DNA from: an uncultured Alphaproteobacteria bacterium
GTDB taxonomy: Bacteria; Pseudomonadota; Alphaproteobacteria; HIMB59
Direction of reading: 5' to 3'
Assembly: GCA_902521485.1 (NCBI GenBank)
Contig: CABYRQ010000001.1
Location: 124,001 to 188,000 of the forward strand
Length of the DNA: 64,000 bases
Shown here: one piece after another, positions 41,429 through 51,935 of the stretch
Layout: the number at the start of each line of letters is the position of its first letter
Numbering within the stretch: the stretch's first letter is position 1
Notes under the pieces: model-generated
What the model was told of the DNA's origin: nothing
Seen by the model: the letters and a program-made list of their open reading frames with translations, nothing else
Database searches by the model: none
Position numbers and translations under genes: made by a program

Positions 41429-41893
41429 TTAAAAATACAAATACAGATAATCTTGAGCGATAATTTTTGAAGCAATAAAAACCTTTTCTGGTGGGAGCTC
41501 ATCATAGTTGCTCCAACCGATGTATTTCAGAGAACCATCTAGACCAACGAGTTGGCGTATTTCATCTAAAGACCGAAGCGGGTGACCCTCTAAAGAGAGA
41601 TCGAGAAGATATGAATGGTTTTCATTTCCTTGGACATGCAAACTCACAACCTGCCATTGATTTTGATTTTGATAGGGAAACACATATATGTTCGACTGTG
41701 ATTCTATGCTAATTGTTTGAGCGTAATTGTGTATTTGGTCATAAATTATTTCTTTAAATAATTGCTTTGTTTCTTTATCTAAACTACCTAGCACAAAAAT
41801 TGTCGACTGATTAATTTCTGCTTTAATTTGTAAAGAAAAGGTTAGGGACATGACCACAAATAATAATTTTTTAATCATGTCCATCCCTGGCAC
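41429..41893 (-). CDS. Hypothetical secreted protein
   Basis: 154 aa, signal-like N-terminus; overlaps upstream ORF. Confidence 0.55.
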   Translation of the reverse strand: MPGMDMIKKLLFVVMSLTFSLQIKAEINQSTIFVLGSLDKETKQLFKEIIYDQIHNYAQTISIESQSNIYVFPYQNQNQWQVVSLHVQGNENHSYLLDLSLEGHPLRSLDEIRQLVGLDGSLKYIGWSNYDELPPEKVFIASKIIAQDYLYLYF

Positions 41894-42402
41894 GTATCCA
41901 AAGCGCTGTTAAGAGCAGAACTGAGTCCGTTAGCTTTCATTTCTATTTCTTGCTTTTCAAACCTGTTGAGAGGATCATTGATAGAAAATGAAATTTGTCC
42001 TCTTTTGGACAACAGGTCTTCCAGCTTGGAGAAGTGGTGTTTATAAAAACTCATTAATTCCCAACGAACGTATCCATCGGCATTCAATCGGCTCGCATCT
42101 TTGCCCTCATAGGATTGACCAGAGAGCTTCCAATCAAAAGTTTCACCGCTCATTACGTCAAAATCTTTCGGCTCAAATTCTCGATTGGTATAAACCAAAC
42201 GAGCATCACAACTTAAGTTTGGATCGACAATAAAAATAATCATTTGATCTTGGTTTTCCAAACTAAAGACTAAGTCCAAGTTTTCTTCTTTAGCCTCCAT
42301 ATGTATCCAATTATCAAATTCATGATGCATAGGACTACCTTCCGCTTTTAGAGAACAATTAGTTAAAAAAACACTGATAAATAACAATAATATTGCCTTC
42401 AT
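41875..42402 (-). CDS. Hypothetical lipoprotein
   Basis: lipobox-like LTNC after hydrophobic N-terminus. Confidence 0.6.
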   Translation of the reverse strand: MKAILLLFISVFLTNCSLKAEGSPMHHEFDNWIHMEAKEENLDLVFSLENQDQMIIFIVDPNLSCDARLVYTNREFEPKDFDVMSGETFDWKLSGQSYEGKDASRLNADGYVRWELMSFYKHHFSKLEDLLSKRGQISFSINDPLNRFEKQEIEMKANGLSSALNSALDTCQGWT

Positions 42403-42722
42403 TACTTTTTTTCTCCTGGTTTGAAATGGCTCATTAAAAATTGCTGAGGAAAGGGCACTTTAAGATAAGAGGCATATTGCCTAGTAAAAAAGTAATTTAA
42501 GGGATACTGAATAAATTCTAGATTACCATTCTCAAGAGCATCAAGGGTGCTACGAGAATAATTCAAATGCTGCATTACATCCTCAACTGAAATATTATTT
42601 TCTTGTCTGATTTGTGCTAAACAACGCAAATACTCTTCAATATCTCTTAAGGATTGTGGTTCATTTTTTTTATTAGAGGATAACCTTCTACCTAAAGTAG
42701 GGGTAATATAATTAGACTTCAT
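42402..42722 (-). CDS. HTH (RodZ/HTH_25-like) DNA-binding protein
   Basis: CLAQIRQENNISVEDVMQHLNYSRSTLDALENGNLEFIQ. Confidence 0.65.
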   Translation of the reverse strand: MKSNYITPTLGRRLSSNKKNEPQSLRDIEEYLRCLAQIRQENNISVEDVMQHLNYSRSTLDALENGNLEFIQYPLNYFFTRQYASYLKVPFPQQFLMSHFKPGEKK

Positions 42723-42827: not shown

Positions 42828-43292
42828 ATGTCTAAAACAAAAGAAATTATCACCATTGAACATACCCTAAAAGAAGTTCTTAAAAATTTAAGTGATCAAG
42901 ACATTCAAGATATCACTGGAAAGTCCAAGTCTTATATATATAAATGTGCTGACCCTGACGATAGTGATAGGAATATACAATTTAGAACTGTCATACGTTT
43001 AGAGCATGCTATGCATAAAATTTACCAAAAAACTCCTTTCAGTAATTTTTTAAAAGATTATCTAGCAACCGCTCAACCTGAAAAACCTGCCAGTGAAAGC
43101 GAAGTACAATCAGAGATATTAGCGATAGGTGGAAGATTGGGAGATTTAATGGATGCTGTACGTGAGTCAATGGATGAGAAAAGTTCAGGGGGATCAAAAA
43201 TAGTCCCACATGAAAAGGAAAAAATTTACCAAGACATCCAAAAATTAGATGATCAGTTGAGTAAAATTAAGAGTGTGTTAAAATCACTCTAA
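42828..43292 (+). CDS. Predicted HTH/CII-like regulator with C-terminal coiled coil
   Basis: LSDQDIQDITGKSKSYIYKCADPDDSDRNIQFRTVIRLEHA; stop 1 nt before the TTG of the channel gene. Confidence 0.55.
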   Translation: MSKTKEIITIEHTLKEVLKNLSDQDIQDITGKSKSYIYKCADPDDSDRNIQFRTVIRLEHAMHKIYQKTPFSNFLKDYLATAQPEKPASESEVQSEILAIGGRLGDLMDAVRESMDEKSSGGSKIVPHEKEKIYQDIQKLDDQLSKIKSVLKSL

Positions 43293-43293
43293 T

Positions 43294-44679
43294 TTGTTTT
43301 TAAGGGGGATACTTTTAGGATTTTGGGTTTTCTTTTCCAGTGTTAGCTGGGGAGCAGAAATTTGTGAACGACTTCTAAAAAAAGACTTCAGAGAAACTTC
43401 TAACATTAGACTAGCTTATAACGACAGTGGTGTAGTTCTTGAGCAAAATCAACCTATTATCAACAAAAAACGCTTTGGTTCCTTCGCTTTTAATACCCCA
43501 CTTAAGGTAGGAGACCGTATCTTAGCTGTTGATAAAAAACCGGTTGCTTCCGATGATGTTGATGCCTACTTGTATTTATCCAACTTACTAGAGACATCAG
43601 CTATGAGAGATCTCTCACTAACTGTTCTACACTTAGATGGTAAAGAGGAGATAGTTGATCTTAAAAGAATTCCTTATCTAGGTCATCCTATAGTCGAGGC
43701 AGATATAATATTAAATGATTTTGAGGTAACTCAGCAAAGTAGTAAATCAAATTTGAATTTAGAGGTGAATTTGCAGTGGCAAAATGAAGATTTAATACAT
43801 AATTTTTTCAATTTAACAGATCTTGATAAATCACCAATCAAATGTATTTTCAGAAAATCAGCAGAACTTGAAAATATTTTACAAAAAATTTGGTATCCTA
43901 CATTTGAAACTACGCAAACAGGATCTTTTATAAATGATATTACTTTTAAAAGTTTACTTATTACAAATGATAAATCTGATCCTTTTAATTTTGTTCTCAA
44001 ACAACAAATTAATTATCAGGTAACTAATTCCTCCGACTTTAGAAAATTCCCTTTTGATAATATTTCAACATCAGCCGATTTTATATTTCAAGATGTTGAT
44101 TTAAGTACTTCTCCTCGATACAACCCAGAGATTAGTATGATGGAGGGTAATGAAATTTTGTATGAATGGGAAATTAATGACCACCGTTTAAGCTGTTGTG
44201 ATACTCAACTTTATGGGCAAGGAGTGCTTCAAACACTCGAATACAGGTTTGATCTTAATCGCAAATCTTTCTACTATATTTTAAAGATCATTCTTCCAGT
44301 GATCTTCCTAGTCTACTTATCCTTTAGTGTTTTTTACATCAGGGCAAGAGAGTTAGAGTCGAAGCTGGCAGTTTCAATGGGTAGTTTGTTAACTTTGGTT
44401 GCCTACAACTTTGTATTTGGAGACGATGTTCCAAAATTAAACTATATCACTATTTTAGATGCTTGGATTTTACTTTCATATTTATTTGCTGGCTTATCTA
44501 CAATGATAACTATATGGAGCTATTGGGACTATCATAGGGATAAACAAACTGGTCTCTATAATACAATCGATACTAAACTTCGGTGGGTTGTTCCAATAAC
44601 TTACCACCTTTTTTTGGTTATTTTATGGTGGGGGATTACAAAAAATTGGAATTTTTATGGGACAACTCTTTCTGTCTAA
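43294..44679 (+). CDS. Pentameric ligand-gated ion channel (Cys-loop superfamily, prokaryotic) with N-terminal PDZ-like domain
   Basis: signal peptide; PDZ-like LKVGDRILAVDKKPVASDDVDAYLYL; pLGIC DFRKFPFDN (cf. GLIC DFRRYPFDS), IWYPTFET, then LNRKSFYYILKIILPVIFLVYLSFSVFY...ESKLAVSMGSLLTLVAYNFVFGDDVPKLNYITILDAWILLSYLF plus TM4. Confidence 0.85.
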   Translation: MFLRGILLGFWVFFSSVSWGAEICERLLKKDFRETSNIRLAYNDSGVVLEQNQPIINKKRFGSFAFNTPLKVGDRILAVDKKPVASDDVDAYLYLSNLLETSAMRDLSLTVLHLDGKEEIVDLKRIPYLGHPIVEADIILNDFEVTQQSSKSNLNLEVNLQWQNEDLIHNFFNLTDLDKSPIKCIFRKSAELENILQKIWYPTFETTQTGSFINDITFKSLLITNDKSDPFNFVLKQQINYQVTNSSDFRKFPFDNISTSADFIFQDVDLSTSPRYNPEISMMEGNEILYEWEINDHRLSCCDTQLYGQGVLQTLEYRFDLNRKSFYYILKIILPVIFLVYLSFSVFYIRARELESKLAVSMGSLLTLVAYNFVFGDDVPKLNYITILDAWILLSYLFAGLSTMITIWSYWDYHRDKQTGLYNTIDTKLRWVVPITYHLFLVILWWGITKNWNFYGTTLSV

Positions 44680-44725: not shown

Positions 44726-45505
44726 TTGTCTTCAGTGCAAAGACCTCTCTCTTCCTTTCTGTTTTCTAGTTACTCCTTCTCTAAGTCATTTCCTACCAGG
44801 TTAATAAATGACAAACAAAAAAAAGAGAGAGGAAAAATTGAGGCGGTTTTTTCATGGTTCCTTTCTGTGCTGCGGCTAATCCCATCCTCCTGTAAATTAG
44901 TCGTGGTACAAAGAGGAAAATACTTAATATTAATAATTACCTCTCTGTTTATTTTCTCCTTAAGCTCAGCGATGACTTTAGAAAAATTCCACGGTTGGAA
45001 TATTCAATTATTAGAAGAGGAAATGATTGCAATTGAACGCAGTGGTGATGTTGAAGACTCAGAAAATATTATTTTTGTTATGACAAAAAATAATTGCGAT
45101 CGTGTACTTCAATTCTTTGAATTATTCACCTTATCGGCTCACCCTGATCTTACAAAATTATTAGATAAAGAAATTGAGCTCCAGGAAAATGGTCATTCAA
45201 CCACCGGAATGGTGCATGAAATATATCCGTATAAGAATGGACACATGATTTTAATAGGTATGGGTTCATATAATCATGAAACTATTAAAGAATATTATAC
45301 TTTTCATAAACGCTCTCGCCTAACAGTCACTGATATTCCATTTGAGGAGCAAGTAGCTTTAAGAACTTTCATAGACTTGCCTACAATTCAGTGGGCCATG
45401 CCTCAAGTAGAGGAGGCGATGGATAGAGCGCATAGGCATTGCAAAAAAATACCTGGTCCCATTTTAGCTAGCCTAAACAATTCTCAGAAAGGAGTAAAAA
45501 CATGA
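44726..45505 (+). CDS. Hypothetical secreted/membrane protein
   Basis: 259 aa; internal hydrophobic segment KYLILIITSLFIFSLSSAMT may be the true signal peptide (start uncertain). Confidence 0.5.
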   Translation: MSSVQRPLSSFLFSSYSFSKSFPTRLINDKQKKERGKIEAVFSWFLSVLRLIPSSCKLVVVQRGKYLILIITSLFIFSLSSAMTLEKFHGWNIQLLEEEMIAIERSGDVEDSENIIFVMTKNNCDRVLQFFELFTLSAHPDLTKLLDKEIELQENGHSTTGMVHEIYPYKNGHMILIGMGSYNHETIKEYYTFHKRSRLTVTDIPFEEQVALRTFIDLPTIQWAMPQVEEAMDRAHRHCKKIPGPILASLNNSQKGVKT

Positions 45506-45963: not shown

Positions 45964-48510
45964 TTAATTTCTTGGAACAAATATAAATTCACCACCATCA
46001 TGCCCACTTTTTGGAAGAGGGGAATACTCAGGTGTTTGGTCAGAATTAGTTACAACAAAAGAAGTGATTTTTTTACTGATGTCTGAAATAGTATTTTCAA
46101 TCTCTATTTCGTTCAAAATATCAATCAGGGATTTCGCAAATATCGAATGATTTCCACCACCACCATCAACTACTGGCTCTTTACCCCCTGAAGTAAAAAT
46201 TAATCTTGATTTCTTACCGCTCATTCTCTGTAAATAAATTTTTCTATTTTCAAAAACTTCATTATTATAACCTGACGAGCCTCTTGTTAACAAACCTGAG
46301 TAACAACTATCAGCTATGACTAAAACATGCTTTGATTTAATAGAACTAACAATTGAAGCAATAGTATCATTATCTATCCACTCAATTGGCACATCCGGTT
46401 CAGCATTGACCGGCTGCCAGTATCCCTGGTTTAATTGTCTATCAATTTCACCATGTCCAGCGTAATAAAGCAAAAAATTATCTTTAAAAGATAGTTTTTT
46501 CTTAAAATTATAAAGCTCCATTAGAATTTCTTTTCTTGTTGCATTTTTTAGTAAAACTATCTCTTTGAACTTATATTTATCGTTTAGTATCTTAGATAAT
46601 ACTTCAGCATCATTTACGGCAGTCTTTAGTTTTGGAAGATACTCATAATCATTATTGCCAATAATTAAGGCATAATATTCTCCGTAGCTTATATCAAAAG
46701 ACTCTTGAGTTTTAGCTATAATAATAGACTTATTTGAATTTTTTCCCCATTTATCATAAGCAGTAATAATAATTTCTTTATCTTTGTCGCCTATGTAAAT
46801 AGTTTGGATTACCTCAACGATACCGTTATTTGTCTCTTTTATCTGAACTGGCTGATTGTCTATGAATACAGCTTCTATGTTTGAGTCGTCACTGACTTTA
46901 AAATTCAAACTAGCAATGTTTCCTTCAAAATTAACATTCTCATTAATTTCTATATTAGGAGGCTCTTTATCAACAACAGCAGCTGTTTTTTCTAATTCAT
47001 CATTTGATCTAGTGGTTAAAATTTCTCTTTGGTATTCCGGTATTATTTCCTCATTGAAGTTTGACTCAGAACCCTTTTTAACTGTTATAATGTCATTAAA
47101 CTTTTTATCTACATTATTATATAAATAAGGAAAAATTTTTTCAAAATCTTCGTTTATTTCATCAACAATGATTTTAGCTCTTATAACTTCATCTTCATTA
47201 AGATTAGCTTTTACCTCTTCTTTACGATCATTTACCCACTCACTGTCAGTGTTAAGGGATGTCATGAGGTTTTGAGATTCAAACTCATAAAGAACATAGG
47301 CATTGAAGAAATCCACATCGTATACATGACCTTCTTGATAGAAAAATCCTACATAACCAATACAAGATGTTGCTCCAGCTGAATTTTTTATATCGTTTAA
47401 ACAAATTTCTAATGCCTTACTATAGTCAGGATTTTCAGTATCCCAAATAATACTATTAGCATAATTTGCGGCTGCAGAATCCCCACAATTTTTTTGCCAA
47501 GCTAATTCATTATATTCAAGTATCTGTTGATCAAAGCTCTCTGGAAAAGGCTGATACCAAGCTTGAATAAAACCAAGACTCCCAAGCGCATAGCATACCT
47601 CCATAGTCATGTTGGCATTACTGTTGTTTATATATGAATTAATTATATCAATTGCATAATTTGCAGCATTTAATGCATTGTCTTCCTTCTTTAAATTTGA
47701 TAATTCTTCTTGTTTATCATAGCCTTTATATCCAAACTCAATTCTTTTAAACCTATCCTTGTGATAAAAAAAAATTGATTTTACTTTTCTATTTTCTATA
47801 TCTTTATAGTTTGTTCCAAAAAGTTGATTTAATTCATTATCAGCATAGCCATAACCCTCTTGCGATAGAGCTTCAAGAATTGAAACACCAAGTTGAATAT
47901 TTTGTTTAGTTCCAACACCTCTGATATAGTGTTCAGCTAGCAGCGATTTTTCGAAAGCCCCTAATTGTGATACATCATATCTATTGAGAAGTTTAAATGA
48001 CTCTTTGTAATCTATTTCTGTTCCGATTCCATAATAAGTAAATTTTACAAGCTCACCTAGTGAGTCAAAATTTCCCTGTTCGTGAAAGGATTTATATATG
48101 TATTCATAAGCCTTTTCATAGTTAGTTTCTACTTCTGGGTTACCCTCATTATAATGTAGCGAACCAAGGTCAGCAGTTGCATAATGATCACCTTTATCTG
48201 CACCAATTTTTGTGTAATAGTATGATTTTTTTAAATCAACAGGAATACCTTCCCCATAATAATAAAGATAACCAAGCCAGCCATATGACTCAGCATCGTC
48301 ATATTTGTCTACTAGTATAAAAGTGCAATTAAAAACTTTTCCGTAATCTTTCCGTTCATAAAAATCATATACTTTCTCTTTTAACTCACTTTTAAGCATT
48401 GAGTCGTTACACCCACTATTTGCAATAGTGCTCTTTTTTTCTAATGCAATAATGCTCTTAGAAAAAAATAAATTTAAAATAAATATGATTATGGCAACAA
48501 GAGATTTCAA
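45964..48510 (-). CDS. Secreted caspase-family (peptidase C14) protein with Sel1-like repeats
   Basis: signal peptide; Sel1-like repeats; YALIIGNNDY, FLLYYAGHGE (His), VLVIADSCYSG (Cys), RLIFTSGGKEPV. Confidence 0.88.
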   Translation of the reverse strand: MKSLVAIIIFILNLFFSKSIIALEKKSTIANSGCNDSMLKSELKEKVYDFYERKDYGKVFNCTFILVDKYDDAESYGWLGYLYYYGEGIPVDLKKSYYYTKIGADKGDHYATADLGSLHYNEGNPEVETNYEKAYEYIYKSFHEQGNFDSLGELVKFTYYGIGTEIDYKESFKLLNRYDVSQLGAFEKSLLAEHYIRGVGTKQNIQLGVSILEALSQEGYGYADNELNQLFGTNYKDIENRKVKSIFFYHKDRFKRIEFGYKGYDKQEELSNLKKEDNALNAANYAIDIINSYINNSNANMTMEVCYALGSLGFIQAWYQPFPESFDQQILEYNELAWQKNCGDSAAANYANSIIWDTENPDYSKALEICLNDIKNSAGATSCIGYVGFFYQEGHVYDVDFFNAYVLYEFESQNLMTSLNTDSEWVNDRKEEVKANLNEDEVIRAKIIVDEINEDFEKIFPYLYNNVDKKFNDIITVKKGSESNFNEEIIPEYQREILTTRSNDELEKTAAVVDKEPPNIEINENVNFEGNIASLNFKVSDDSNIEAVFIDNQPVQIKETNNGIVEVIQTIYIGDKDKEIIITAYDKWGKNSNKSIIIAKTQESFDISYGEYYALIIGNNDYEYLPKLKTAVNDAEVLSKILNDKYKFKEIVLLKNATRKEILMELYNFKKKLSFKDNFLLYYAGHGEIDRQLNQGYWQPVNAEPDVPIEWIDNDTIASIVSSIKSKHVLVIADSCYSGLLTRGSSGYNNEVFENRKIYLQRMSGKKSRLIFTSGGKEPVVDGGGGNHSIFAKSLIDILNEIEIENTISDISKKITSFVVTNSDQTPEYSPLPKSGHDGGEFIFVPRN

Positions 48511-48866: not shown

Positions 48867-51800
48867 ATGAAACTAATTTTAATGTCATTATATTTAATTT
48901 TTTTCTGTCAATTCAACGCTTTAAGTAATGAAGTTGATGACTGTAAAAAGTTGGCTTCATACCCAGTAAATAATGATTTTGAGTATGGAGTAATAAGCAT
49001 TGATAGTGAAGAGCAAGCAAAAGAAATCATTAAAATTTGTGACAGGTCAATTAAAAATGATCCAACAAATGGAGAATATTATTTAAATTTATCACGAGCA
49101 TATTATTTCTTAGAGGATTATCAAAAAGAAATTGAATTATTATATCAGGCAATTGAAAATAATTATTTTGATCAAGTTTATTATGATCTTAGTGAATTAT
49201 ACCTTTATGGTTTACATGATCCAATTAATCAGACACCTGATGTAGAAAAATCAATAGAACTATTATTTGAAGGAGATAAAAATGGTGATCATTTCTCACA
49301 ATATTTGTTAGGTTTTTATTATTTATTTGGAGATTTTGAGGAGATATTAGGACCTGCAGACATCGAAAAAGCTATAAAATATTTTGAAAAATCAAAAAGT
49401 GAAAATATATATTCTTTCCTTCAGTACACTTTAAGAGCAATGCCAGCTAGTGAGCAAATTGATATTTTAAAAGAAATTAATTCTCTCTATGATGAAAATA
49501 ATTTTTTACATAATGTGCCTTTGGGATGGATTAATTATCATCTTTCAGATATTTATTCACGAAATTATCAATTCATAGAACAAATCAATGCAGCTAAAAA
49601 TACAGTAAAGTTTATTTCTTCAGTTTATGGTAATGATTACATAGGACTTTCTAGTGATTACCAACTTTTAGCAGAGGCACACATGAGGCAGGGGCTTTTT
49701 AGTGAAGCAGATAAATTTTTAAATAAATCTTTTTTTATTTTGAACAGTAATGATTATTCAAATCTTGAATATGAATATTTTGAATTAGTTTACACATTTG
49801 CTGAGCTAGCAATAGCACAACAACAAGATGAAAAAGCATTTAATTCATTTAGAGAAATTGCTAATTATTTTGAGAATAATGAAAGAGGCTTTCCACTTTT
49901 AGAGGGATATACATATCTATATCTAGCAGATTTTTATTTAACTAAAAAAAATTATATAAAATCAGAGGAATTGATAAAAAAAGCTGAAACGGTTTTAGAG
50001 CCTTATAAGAGCCTCTCTTTTTATTATGAGGGTTTCACTGAAATAAAGATAGATCAACTATTTTTATCCGATAGACATGAGGAATTAAATCTTTTCCTTA
50101 AATCTTACAAAAATTATTTTGAAGATCCAAATAATCAAAATAATTTAAATACTACAGAAATACTTAATTATAAATATTTGATTTCAAAATATGATTACAT
50201 GCAAAAAAATCCATTAAAATGCGTAAGAGAAATTAATAATAATTTAAATTTAATTGAAGAATTAAAAATCAATCAAAGTACTTTTGAGTTTGATAATTTA
50301 ATTGTTCTAGGTAATTGCTACAGATCTTTATCTAACAGCTCTGATGCATATCACTCTTTTATTAGAGCTTTGAAGTTAAAAAATAATTCACGCGCAGTTA
50401 GAGATCGTTTTTATCCCAAACATAACATTGAGGAAATATACAATTTTGTAATGCAATACTCGATTGATAACGGTATTTTCAACGAAGATTTATTTGAGAT
50501 AATTCAAATTTCTAATTTGGAAGATACATCATCAGCAATTGATGAGATGTTTATTAGAGAAAATATAAAAAATATTGAATTAAAAGAGTTGCTTAATAAG
50601 AAAAGATTACTCCAATCATCTTTAGATAAAATCAATTCTGATATTTTGAAAATAAGAACAGTTAATAGCAATAATAATACAGATCAAAAAAAATTATTTG
50701 AAAGAAAAAATAACCTTCAAAATGAAATTAATTTTATTGATATTGATCTTGCTGATAAACACCCAGACTTAATTGACTATGTTAATACTAAGCGTTTAAA
50801 ATTAGATACAATACAGGAAGAAATATTTAAGAATGAGGTGATTATAAAATTTATAGAGATTAATGATAGTGTTTATGTTGCTGTCCTTGATAATGTCAAT
50901 TTTAAATTAGAGTTAATTACTAATGAAAAGCAAATATTAAAAAGAAATATCAAAAAATATAGATCTTTGTTAGAAAATCCTTTTTCTTCCTCTAATTCAT
51001 TTGCAATCGGAAATGATATTTACAATGATTTATTCAAGAAAGTCTCCAAGCACATAAATGGCAAAAGTAATATCTATATTATCATGTCTCCCCTAATAAA
51101 TAGTTTGCCTTTAGAGACTTTGTTAAAAGAAAATAAAAATAATTTAAACTTTTCTGAAATGAATTGGCTAATAAATCATTTTAATTTTAAATATTTACCT
51201 ACTTTTAAATCATTTAATTCTTTGAAACTACTTCAGACAAAAAACACAATGGGCTTAGAGTATTTAGGAGTTGGTGATCCTGTAATAGATAATGTAGACA
51301 CTAATAAATTTAGTTTTTCATCTTTTCTTTTGAGGGGATTAAATGAAGAATTCATAACATACTTAAAAGAATTACCTGAGCTACCTAATACATCAAATGA
51401 AATAAATCAAATTGGTGAAAATTTTAAAAATAAAAAAATTCTTCTCAGAGAAGATGCATCAGAATTAAATATTGCATACAAAGATAATAGTTCAAGATTC
51501 ATAGTTTTTGCAACTCACGCCCTTATGCCCCATGAATTGGGTGACAAATCTTTACCAGGATTGGTTTTAACTATACCAGATACGGTTAATGAAAATATAG
51601 ATGGTTTATTAACAACTTCTGAAATAATTAATACAAATTTTACTTCTGAGCTCATCATACTATCTGCTTGTAATACTGCTGCTGGAGACATCGAGAATAT
51701 AAATTCTCTCTCCGGTTTAACAAAATCATTTTTCTTTTCTGGGGCTAAAAATATAATTGCTTCGCACTGGTCTGTAGAAACATACTCTGCTGAAAAAACA

Positions 51801-51935
51801 ACCATCAACTTATTTGAAAAATCTGATGAAAGTTATTCAAGCCGGTTGAGAAAATCGAAACTAGATTTAATTAAAGAAGATGATACAGGGCATCCCTTTT
51901 TTTGGGCACCATTTATATTTATAGGTACAAATTAA
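48867..51935 (+). CDS. Secreted CHAT-domain protease with TPR-like repeats
   Basis: signal peptide, TPR-rich, IVFATHALMPHE (His), LIILSACNTAAGD (Cys), GAKNIIASHWSV. Confidence 0.87.
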   Translation: MKLILMSLYLIFFCQFNALSNEVDDCKKLASYPVNNDFEYGVISIDSEEQAKEIIKICDRSIKNDPTNGEYYLNLSRAYYFLEDYQKEIELLYQAIENNYFDQVYYDLSELYLYGLHDPINQTPDVEKSIELLFEGDKNGDHFSQYLLGFYYLFGDFEEILGPADIEKAIKYFEKSKSENIYSFLQYTLRAMPASEQIDILKEINSLYDENNFLHNVPLGWINYHLSDIYSRNYQFIEQINAAKNTVKFISSVYGNDYIGLSSDYQLLAEAHMRQGLFSEADKFLNKSFFILNSNDYSNLEYEYFELVYTFAELAIAQQQDEKAFNSFREIANYFENNERGFPLLEGYTYLYLADFYLTKKNYIKSEELIKKAETVLEPYKSLSFYYEGFTEIKIDQLFLSDRHEELNLFLKSYKNYFEDPNNQNNLNTTEILNYKYLISKYDYMQKNPLKCVREINNNLNLIEELKINQSTFEFDNLIVLGNCYRSLSNSSDAYHSFIRALKLKNNSRAVRDRFYPKHNIEEIYNFVMQYSIDNGIFNEDLFEIIQISNLEDTSSAIDEMFIRENIKNIELKELLNKKRLLQSSLDKINSDILKIRTVNSNNNTDQKKLFERKNNLQNEINFIDIDLADKHPDLIDYVNTKRLKLDTIQEEIFKNEVIIKFIEINDSVYVAVLDNVNFKLELITNEKQILKRNIKKYRSLLENPFSSSNSFAIGNDIYNDLFKKVSKHINGKSNIYIIMSPLINSLPLETLLKENKNNLNFSEMNWLINHFNFKYLPTFKSFNSLKLLQTKNTMGLEYLGVGDPVIDNVDTNKFSFSSFLLRGLNEEFITYLKELPELPNTSNEINQIGENFKNKKILLREDASELNIAYKDNSSRFIVFATHALMPHELGDKSLPGLVLTIPDTVNENIDGLLTTSEIINTNFTSELIILSACNTAAGDIENINSLSGLTKSFFFSGAKNIIASHWSVETYSAEKTTINLFEKSDESYSSRLRKSKLDLIKEDDTGHPFFWAPFIFIGTN

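Follow-up and report, generated by a model that had tools for sequence, protein, structure and literature searches.

N-terminal modules described so far as fusions to pentameric ligand-gated ion channels (pLGICs) comprise the PBP-I and Cache/MCP-N modules and the jelly-rolls of DeCLIC (PMC549065, PMC4795631, PMC9897478, PMC12664993). None of the pLGICs of unicellular organisms has a known biological role (PMC4795631), and a vicinal Cys dyad in these channels has been reported only in a subset of animal cation channels (PMC549065).

The gene analysed here lies in a stretch of 64,000 nucleotides (the window) from the assembly of a streamlined marine alphaproteobacterium (1.19 Mb, 78% complete), and its product, designated PDZ-pLGIC, joins a PDZ domain, a module with which other proteins grip protein C-termini, to a pLGIC, a relative of the neurotransmitter receptors of nerve cells. 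No PDZ-pLGIC was found in the open-access literature searched, a scope that leaves out subscription papers and public protein-architecture databases. The combination appears to be undescribed, as the preliminary description had claimed, and this claim holds within that literature only, wider absence not having been shown. The features of the locus are as follows.

41429..41893, minus strand: p154r, predicted exported, with a conserved L-[YH]-F end that makes it another candidate for the PDZ ligand; conserved neighbourhood
41875..42402, minus strand: p175, predicted exported or lipoprotein-like; conserved neighbourhood
42402..42722, minus strand: HTH25, divergent regulator (PF13413)
42828..43292, plus strand: HTH154, small putative DNA-binding protein, conserved partner directly upstream of the channel gene
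43294..44679, plus strand: PDZ-pLGIC gene, 461 aa, TTG start, TAA stop
43294..43356, plus strand: signal peptide, residues 1-21 (MFLRGILLGFWVFFSSVSWGA), read from the sequence
43357..43401, plus strand: N-terminal helix, residues 22-36, with invariant C24
43402..43674, plus strand: PDZ domain, residues 37-127 (approximate borders)
43675..44262, plus strand: linker (YLGHPIV) followed by the putative ligand-binding domain of the pLGIC, residues 128-323 (PDB alignment, Foldseek of the low-confidence full model)
44035..44061, plus strand: Pro-loop DFRKFPFDN, residues 248-256, without Cys-loop cysteines; P253 and D255 invariant
44194..44199, plus strand: vicinal cysteines C301-C302 in loop C, in 27/27 PDZ-type orthologs and in none of the paralogs
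44263..44640, plus strand: transmembrane domain M1-M4, residues 324-449, M2 about 354-378 (PF02932, model helices)
44641..44676, plus strand: C-terminal tail, residues 450-461, a variable linker followed by [ILV]-x-V-COOH, in 22/22 tailed orthologs
44726..45505, plus strand: p259, predicted exported, partner encoded downstream; PDZ-less channels too are followed by homologs

Channel and PDZ domains in one chain

The product of 43294-44679 is very likely an exported protein comprised of a signal peptide, a Cys-bearing helix, a PDZ domain, a pLGIC ligand-binding domain, and four transmembrane helices. Its TTG start codon lies 1 base past the end of HTH154. A chance open reading frame is excluded by the dN/dS of about 0.05-0.1 across orthologs, which are under strong purifying selection. 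This selection acts on the PDZ as well as on the channel domains, with dN/dS usually higher in the PDZ than elsewhere in the channel.

The C-terminal part had been described previously as a GLIC-like prokaryotic pLGIC, and this identification held. The window protein matches PF02932 (Neur_chan_memb) with an E-value of 2.7e-6 and 28.3 bits (cut-off 28.1), and orthologs reach up to 38.3 bits. Its best PDB match is 6fl9 (sTeLIC, 4.6e-15), and GLIC and glycine receptors are also matched, the glycine-receptor alignment spanning residues 128-445. The Pfam ligand-binding domain, PF02931, is not matched in the window protein, and this domain is considered divergent; support for a beta-sandwich ligand-binding domain comes from the glycine-receptor alignment and from Foldseek of a low-confidence model. 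The Pro-loop FPFD (P253 and D255 being invariant among 13 relatives), the pre-M1 Arg (R323, also invariant among the 13), and the M2-M3 Pro are all invariant in relatives, and no cysteines that could form a Cys-loop disulfide flank the FPFD loop in the 13 sequences aligned. The AlphaFold2 model of the full-length protein is of low confidence (pLDDT 56.5); it contains four transmembrane helices (H325-348, H354-378, H387-415, and H421-449), and its Foldseek matches are sTeLIC, DeCLIC, and GABA-A receptors.

The pore is probably cation-selective, a prediction made from sequence alone. It rests on E355, invariant among the 13 relatives, which an ungapped alignment to GLIC on the M2-M3 Pro leads us to take as M2 -2′, with L366 taken as 9′ and F373 as 16′; the -2′ Glu of GLIC is E222. 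The protein is envisaged as a homopentameric Pro-loop pLGIC of the inner membrane, where pentamer formation and ion conduction are inferred and only a monomer has been predicted.

The preliminary description had also proposed a PDZ-like N-terminal domain, which the window protein alone supports only suggestively (Pfam PDZ_2, E-value 0.01, 16.5 bits against a cut-off of 27, and thus sub-threshold) but which its orthologs, a family profile, and Foldseek confirm. Two orthologs, L017 and L047, whose chains also contain PF02932, match PF00595 with 35.7 and 37.0 bits, at least 12 bits above the cut-off of 23.2. When a profile of ten N-domains was compared with the PDB, PDZ proteins occurred throughout the leading hits, headed by an RseP homolog (1.3e-5) and including DegP and harmonin. 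The AlphaFold2 model of residues 22-134 (pLDDT 70.9, the core mostly 75-90) adopts a strand-strand-helix-strand-helix-strand-strand topology, and its Foldseek matches are DegS, HtrA, CtpA, and RseP, the top ones being DegS structures with bound YxF-type peptides. In the window protein, a phi-G-phi-like loop lies around residues 44-48 and a GD motif at 73-74; these hallmarks of ligand-binding PDZs, and those of the helix, are partly retained. In the window allele the carboxylate loop (DSGVV) is non-canonical, and in L017 (DVGVV) it is nearer to the canonical form. The presence of PDZ and pLGIC in a single chain is regarded as demonstrated, with very high likelihood.

Of the two outcomes named beforehand as refuting this reading, the absence of a PDZ fold did not occur, such a fold being predicted for residues 22-134. 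The other, the lack of a pentameric pore in the TM2 region, did not occur either, although the full-length model is poor and the pentamer remains an inference.

Some relatives without a PDZ (L050 and L062, also L052) possess both the N-terminal Cys-helix and C184. Since L050 and L062 keep both sides of the junction, the PDZ looks inserted between the N-terminal helix and strand 1. C24 and C184 are invariant in 13 diverse relatives, PDZ-less ones included, and it is likely, by inference from the sequence, that a disulfide between them pins the helix.

The tail motif is a demonstrated feature. Among 22 distinct ortholog sequences with an intact M4, position 0 is always V and position -2 always I, L, or V, while positions -1 and -3 to -7 vary. 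This spacing is that of a class II PDZ ligand, and the [ILV]-x-V tail was not present in the PDZ-less relatives compared. The tailed orthologs are related by descent, so that conservation at these two positions is only moderately significant. In addition, four pore-swapped alleles (L014, L015, L033, and L036) have a PDZ and end in VYN without a tail, which indicates that the tail is not indispensable.

Cassette, distribution, and mosaic evolution

Conservation of the gene and its cassette is likewise shown. Orthologous loci keep the order HTH154-channel-p259 together with the divergent HTH25-p175-p154r group, as far as contigs extend, and the cassette core (HTH25, HTH154, channel, and p259, with p175 in L093) recurs elsewhere in the genome with PDZ-less channels (L093 and L094). 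At least part of a channel is carried by all 31 HTH154-positive genomes, and only one genome (G067) has a channel without HTH154. On the basis of this co-occurrence and of the recurrence around PDZ-less channels, HTH154 and p259 are likely channel partners irrespective of the sensor. Profiles of p259 and HTH154 gave no informative match among solved structures. The family of p154r is unassigned, and its C-terminus is strongly conserved ([YF]L[YF]L[YH]F-like).

The cassette is adjoined by genes for a Sel1-caspase-like protein (45964-48510, minus strand) and a TPR-CHAT protein (48867-51935, plus strand). Caspase-like/CHAT genes recur near the cassette in some genomes (L025 and L097) and not in all. 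A defence system, which these neighbours had suggested, was rejected, as PADLOC flags single components only and the neighbours are not constant.

A search with the window protein detected the channel in 24 of 60 relatives, and a family profile found it in 32 of the 52 genomes sampled from the genus when all channel types and fragments were counted. PDZ-pLGIC orthologs occur in about half of these 52 genomes, all of one streamlined marine alphaproteobacterial genus. Among 387 genomes of Alphaproteobacteria and 399 of Pseudomonadota scanned with PF02932, few pLGICs were found outside the genus. The five of these scanned with Pfam lacked a PDZ and had either a PBP domain or no N-terminal domain that was recognised. 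Searches of viral contigs, phages, and plasmids yielded no PDZ-pLGIC and one weak pLGIC on a Legionella plasmid.

Some genomes encode a second divergent pLGIC about 4-5 kb downstream, near an HTH154 paralog (L034:11621-13018 and L022:12056-13381), with an open frame of 474 aa whose N-domain is PDZ-like by eye. Sister-family pLGICs (L113:1280-2857, L115:256-2010, and L116:970-2454) have N-terminal domains of 100-200 aa, possibly diverged PDZs. Pfam and hhalign did not establish a PDZ in the divergent N-domains of L034:11621-13018, L053, L113, L115, or L116, all of which resemble PDZs on visual inspection. In L031, the channel and its neighbours are frameshifted, by single-cell assembly errors or decay, and L041 is cut at a contig end.

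The receptor gene is an allelic mosaic. Compared with the window, L097 (6876-8258) has coding flanks of 93-97% DNA identity and a PDZ, ligand-binding domain, and transmembrane domain of 56%, 69%, and 70%, respectively, whereas L032 (6001-7350) combines equally similar flanks (93-97%) with a PDZ/ligand-binding domain of 89-90% and a transmembrane domain of only 64%. The swapped block thus runs from PDZ to tail in one lineage and covers the pore domain in the other, and the signal peptide is retained across the swaps. Because near-identical flanks enclose divergent PDZ-pore or pore blocks, receptor modules have been replaced allelically.

A gating proposal and its rivals

In pLGICs, the domain preceding M1 and the end of M4 both face the outer side. 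PDZ and tail would therefore both be periplasmic, which would allow the PDZ to hold the tail of its own channel. In the mechanism proposed here, a pentamer would present five PDZ domains on the periplasmic side, each subunit contributing one that sits between the Cys-pinned N-terminal helix and strand 1 of the ligand-binding domain. Each would most likely bind periplasmic protein C-termini of the [ILV]-x-[VF]-COOH type and thereby bias gating. The tail, which would emerge from M4 on the PDZ side, is the leading candidate ligand and may serve as a latch within or between subunits, to be released by a competing C-terminus.

The earlier suggestion that periplasmic peptide C-termini gate the channel thus stays a hypothesis, refined to the channel's own tail as the most notable candidate ligand, without binding or gating data. 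Control of gating by PDZ-peptide contacts, where both binding and gating are inferred and no binding or current data exist, seems to us as apt to prove right as wrong. That the tail is the ligand, inferred without binding data, is judged rather less likely than not. At 12 residues the tail is short for so tall a ligand-binding domain, which makes its reach marginal, and the full-length model is too poor for placing PDZ or tail. The bolder joint reading appears unlikely: a peptide-gated pLGIC whose five PDZs are latched on their own [ILV]-x-V tails and released by competing C-termini, whereupon the pore opens or closes, with exchange of PDZ-pore and pore alleles diversifying the receptor.

It is possible instead that the PDZ senses another periplasmic C-terminus, either that of p154r or those of unfolded outer-membrane proteins, as DegS does, the channel being a sensor of envelope stress or of a partner. 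In favour of this alternative, the best Foldseek matches of the PDZ are DegS structures carrying YxF-type peptides, intact copies of p154r have the conserved L-[YH]-F end, and p154r was not seen in L093, the only PDZ-less cassette read in which there was space for it on that side. Such an external ligand would also accommodate the tail-less alleles that retain the PDZ. However, p154r is conserved far upstream of its last residues, a pattern not peculiar to PDZ ligands, the cassette yielded no sigma-E-like genes, and DegS prefers Y at -2, which also counts against this alternative.

A second possibility is that the PDZ is a structural or assembly module (a spacer, or an inter-subunit or inter-pentamer contact) that binds no peptide, with small-molecule gating at the loop C site, which is how other pLGICs are gated. 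This would agree with the usually higher dN/dS of the PDZ, the non-canonical carboxylate loop, the conserved vicinal Cys at the loop C site, and the sharing of the same neighbour genes by PDZ-less relatives. On the other hand, it does not explain why positions 0 and -2 of the tail are so regular, and features of ligand-binding PDZs are partly kept. Sequence alone cannot decide between own tail, external C-terminus, and structural PDZ.

That the N-domain is an unrelated beta-rich domain resembling PDZ by chance, as the sub-threshold Pfam score of the window protein and the moderate model confidence might allow, is very unlikely and largely refuted by the PF00595 scores of L017 and L047, the PDZ proteins matched by the PDB profile, and the periplasmic PDZ proteases that dominate the Foldseek results.

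Comparison with known systems

PDZ-pLGIC shares with GLIC and sTeLIC the transmembrane domain, the FPFD Pro-loop, and the M2-M3 proline, as well as, by inference from alignment and a low-confidence model, the ligand-binding domain; its invariant Glu at M2 -2′ corresponds to E222 in GLIC. These channels have no N-terminal domain and differ in lacking the PDZ, the loop C vicinal Cys, and the [ILV]-x-V tail, and their Foldseek identity is 18-19%. DeCLIC, also matched by Foldseek, carries a periplasmic accessory domain ahead of the ligand-binding domain, but that domain consists of two jelly-roll lobes with calcium sites and is not a PDZ (PMC9897478, PMC12664993). A sensor module is likewise fused before the pLGIC in PBP-I-pLGIC and Cache/MCP-N-pLGIC (Tasneem et al., PMC549065), and PBP-type fusions are among the sequences found (e.g., L090 and L092); their modules, however, bind small molecules and not C-termini. 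The nearest structural matches of the PDZ, DegS, RseP, and CtpA, share its fold and periplasmic location, but there the PDZ controls a protease, whereas here it is joined to a channel.

With regard to the cysteines, nicotinic receptor alpha subunits also have a vicinal Cys-Cys ahead of the last strand of the ligand-binding domain. PDZ-pLGIC differs in having a bacterial Pro-loop without the Cys-loop disulfide and in placing the pair earlier in the loop C hairpin, and nicotinic receptors have no PDZ. C301-C302 is a bacterial example of such a vicinal pair. PDZ-pLGIC is a naturally occurring chimera in which the coupling of an additional domain to gating can be studied. Its lineage is open-ocean, and the allele swapping suggests selection on the sensor. 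With its plausible self-ligand, it provides a testable hypothesis that a bacterial pLGIC senses protein C-termini.
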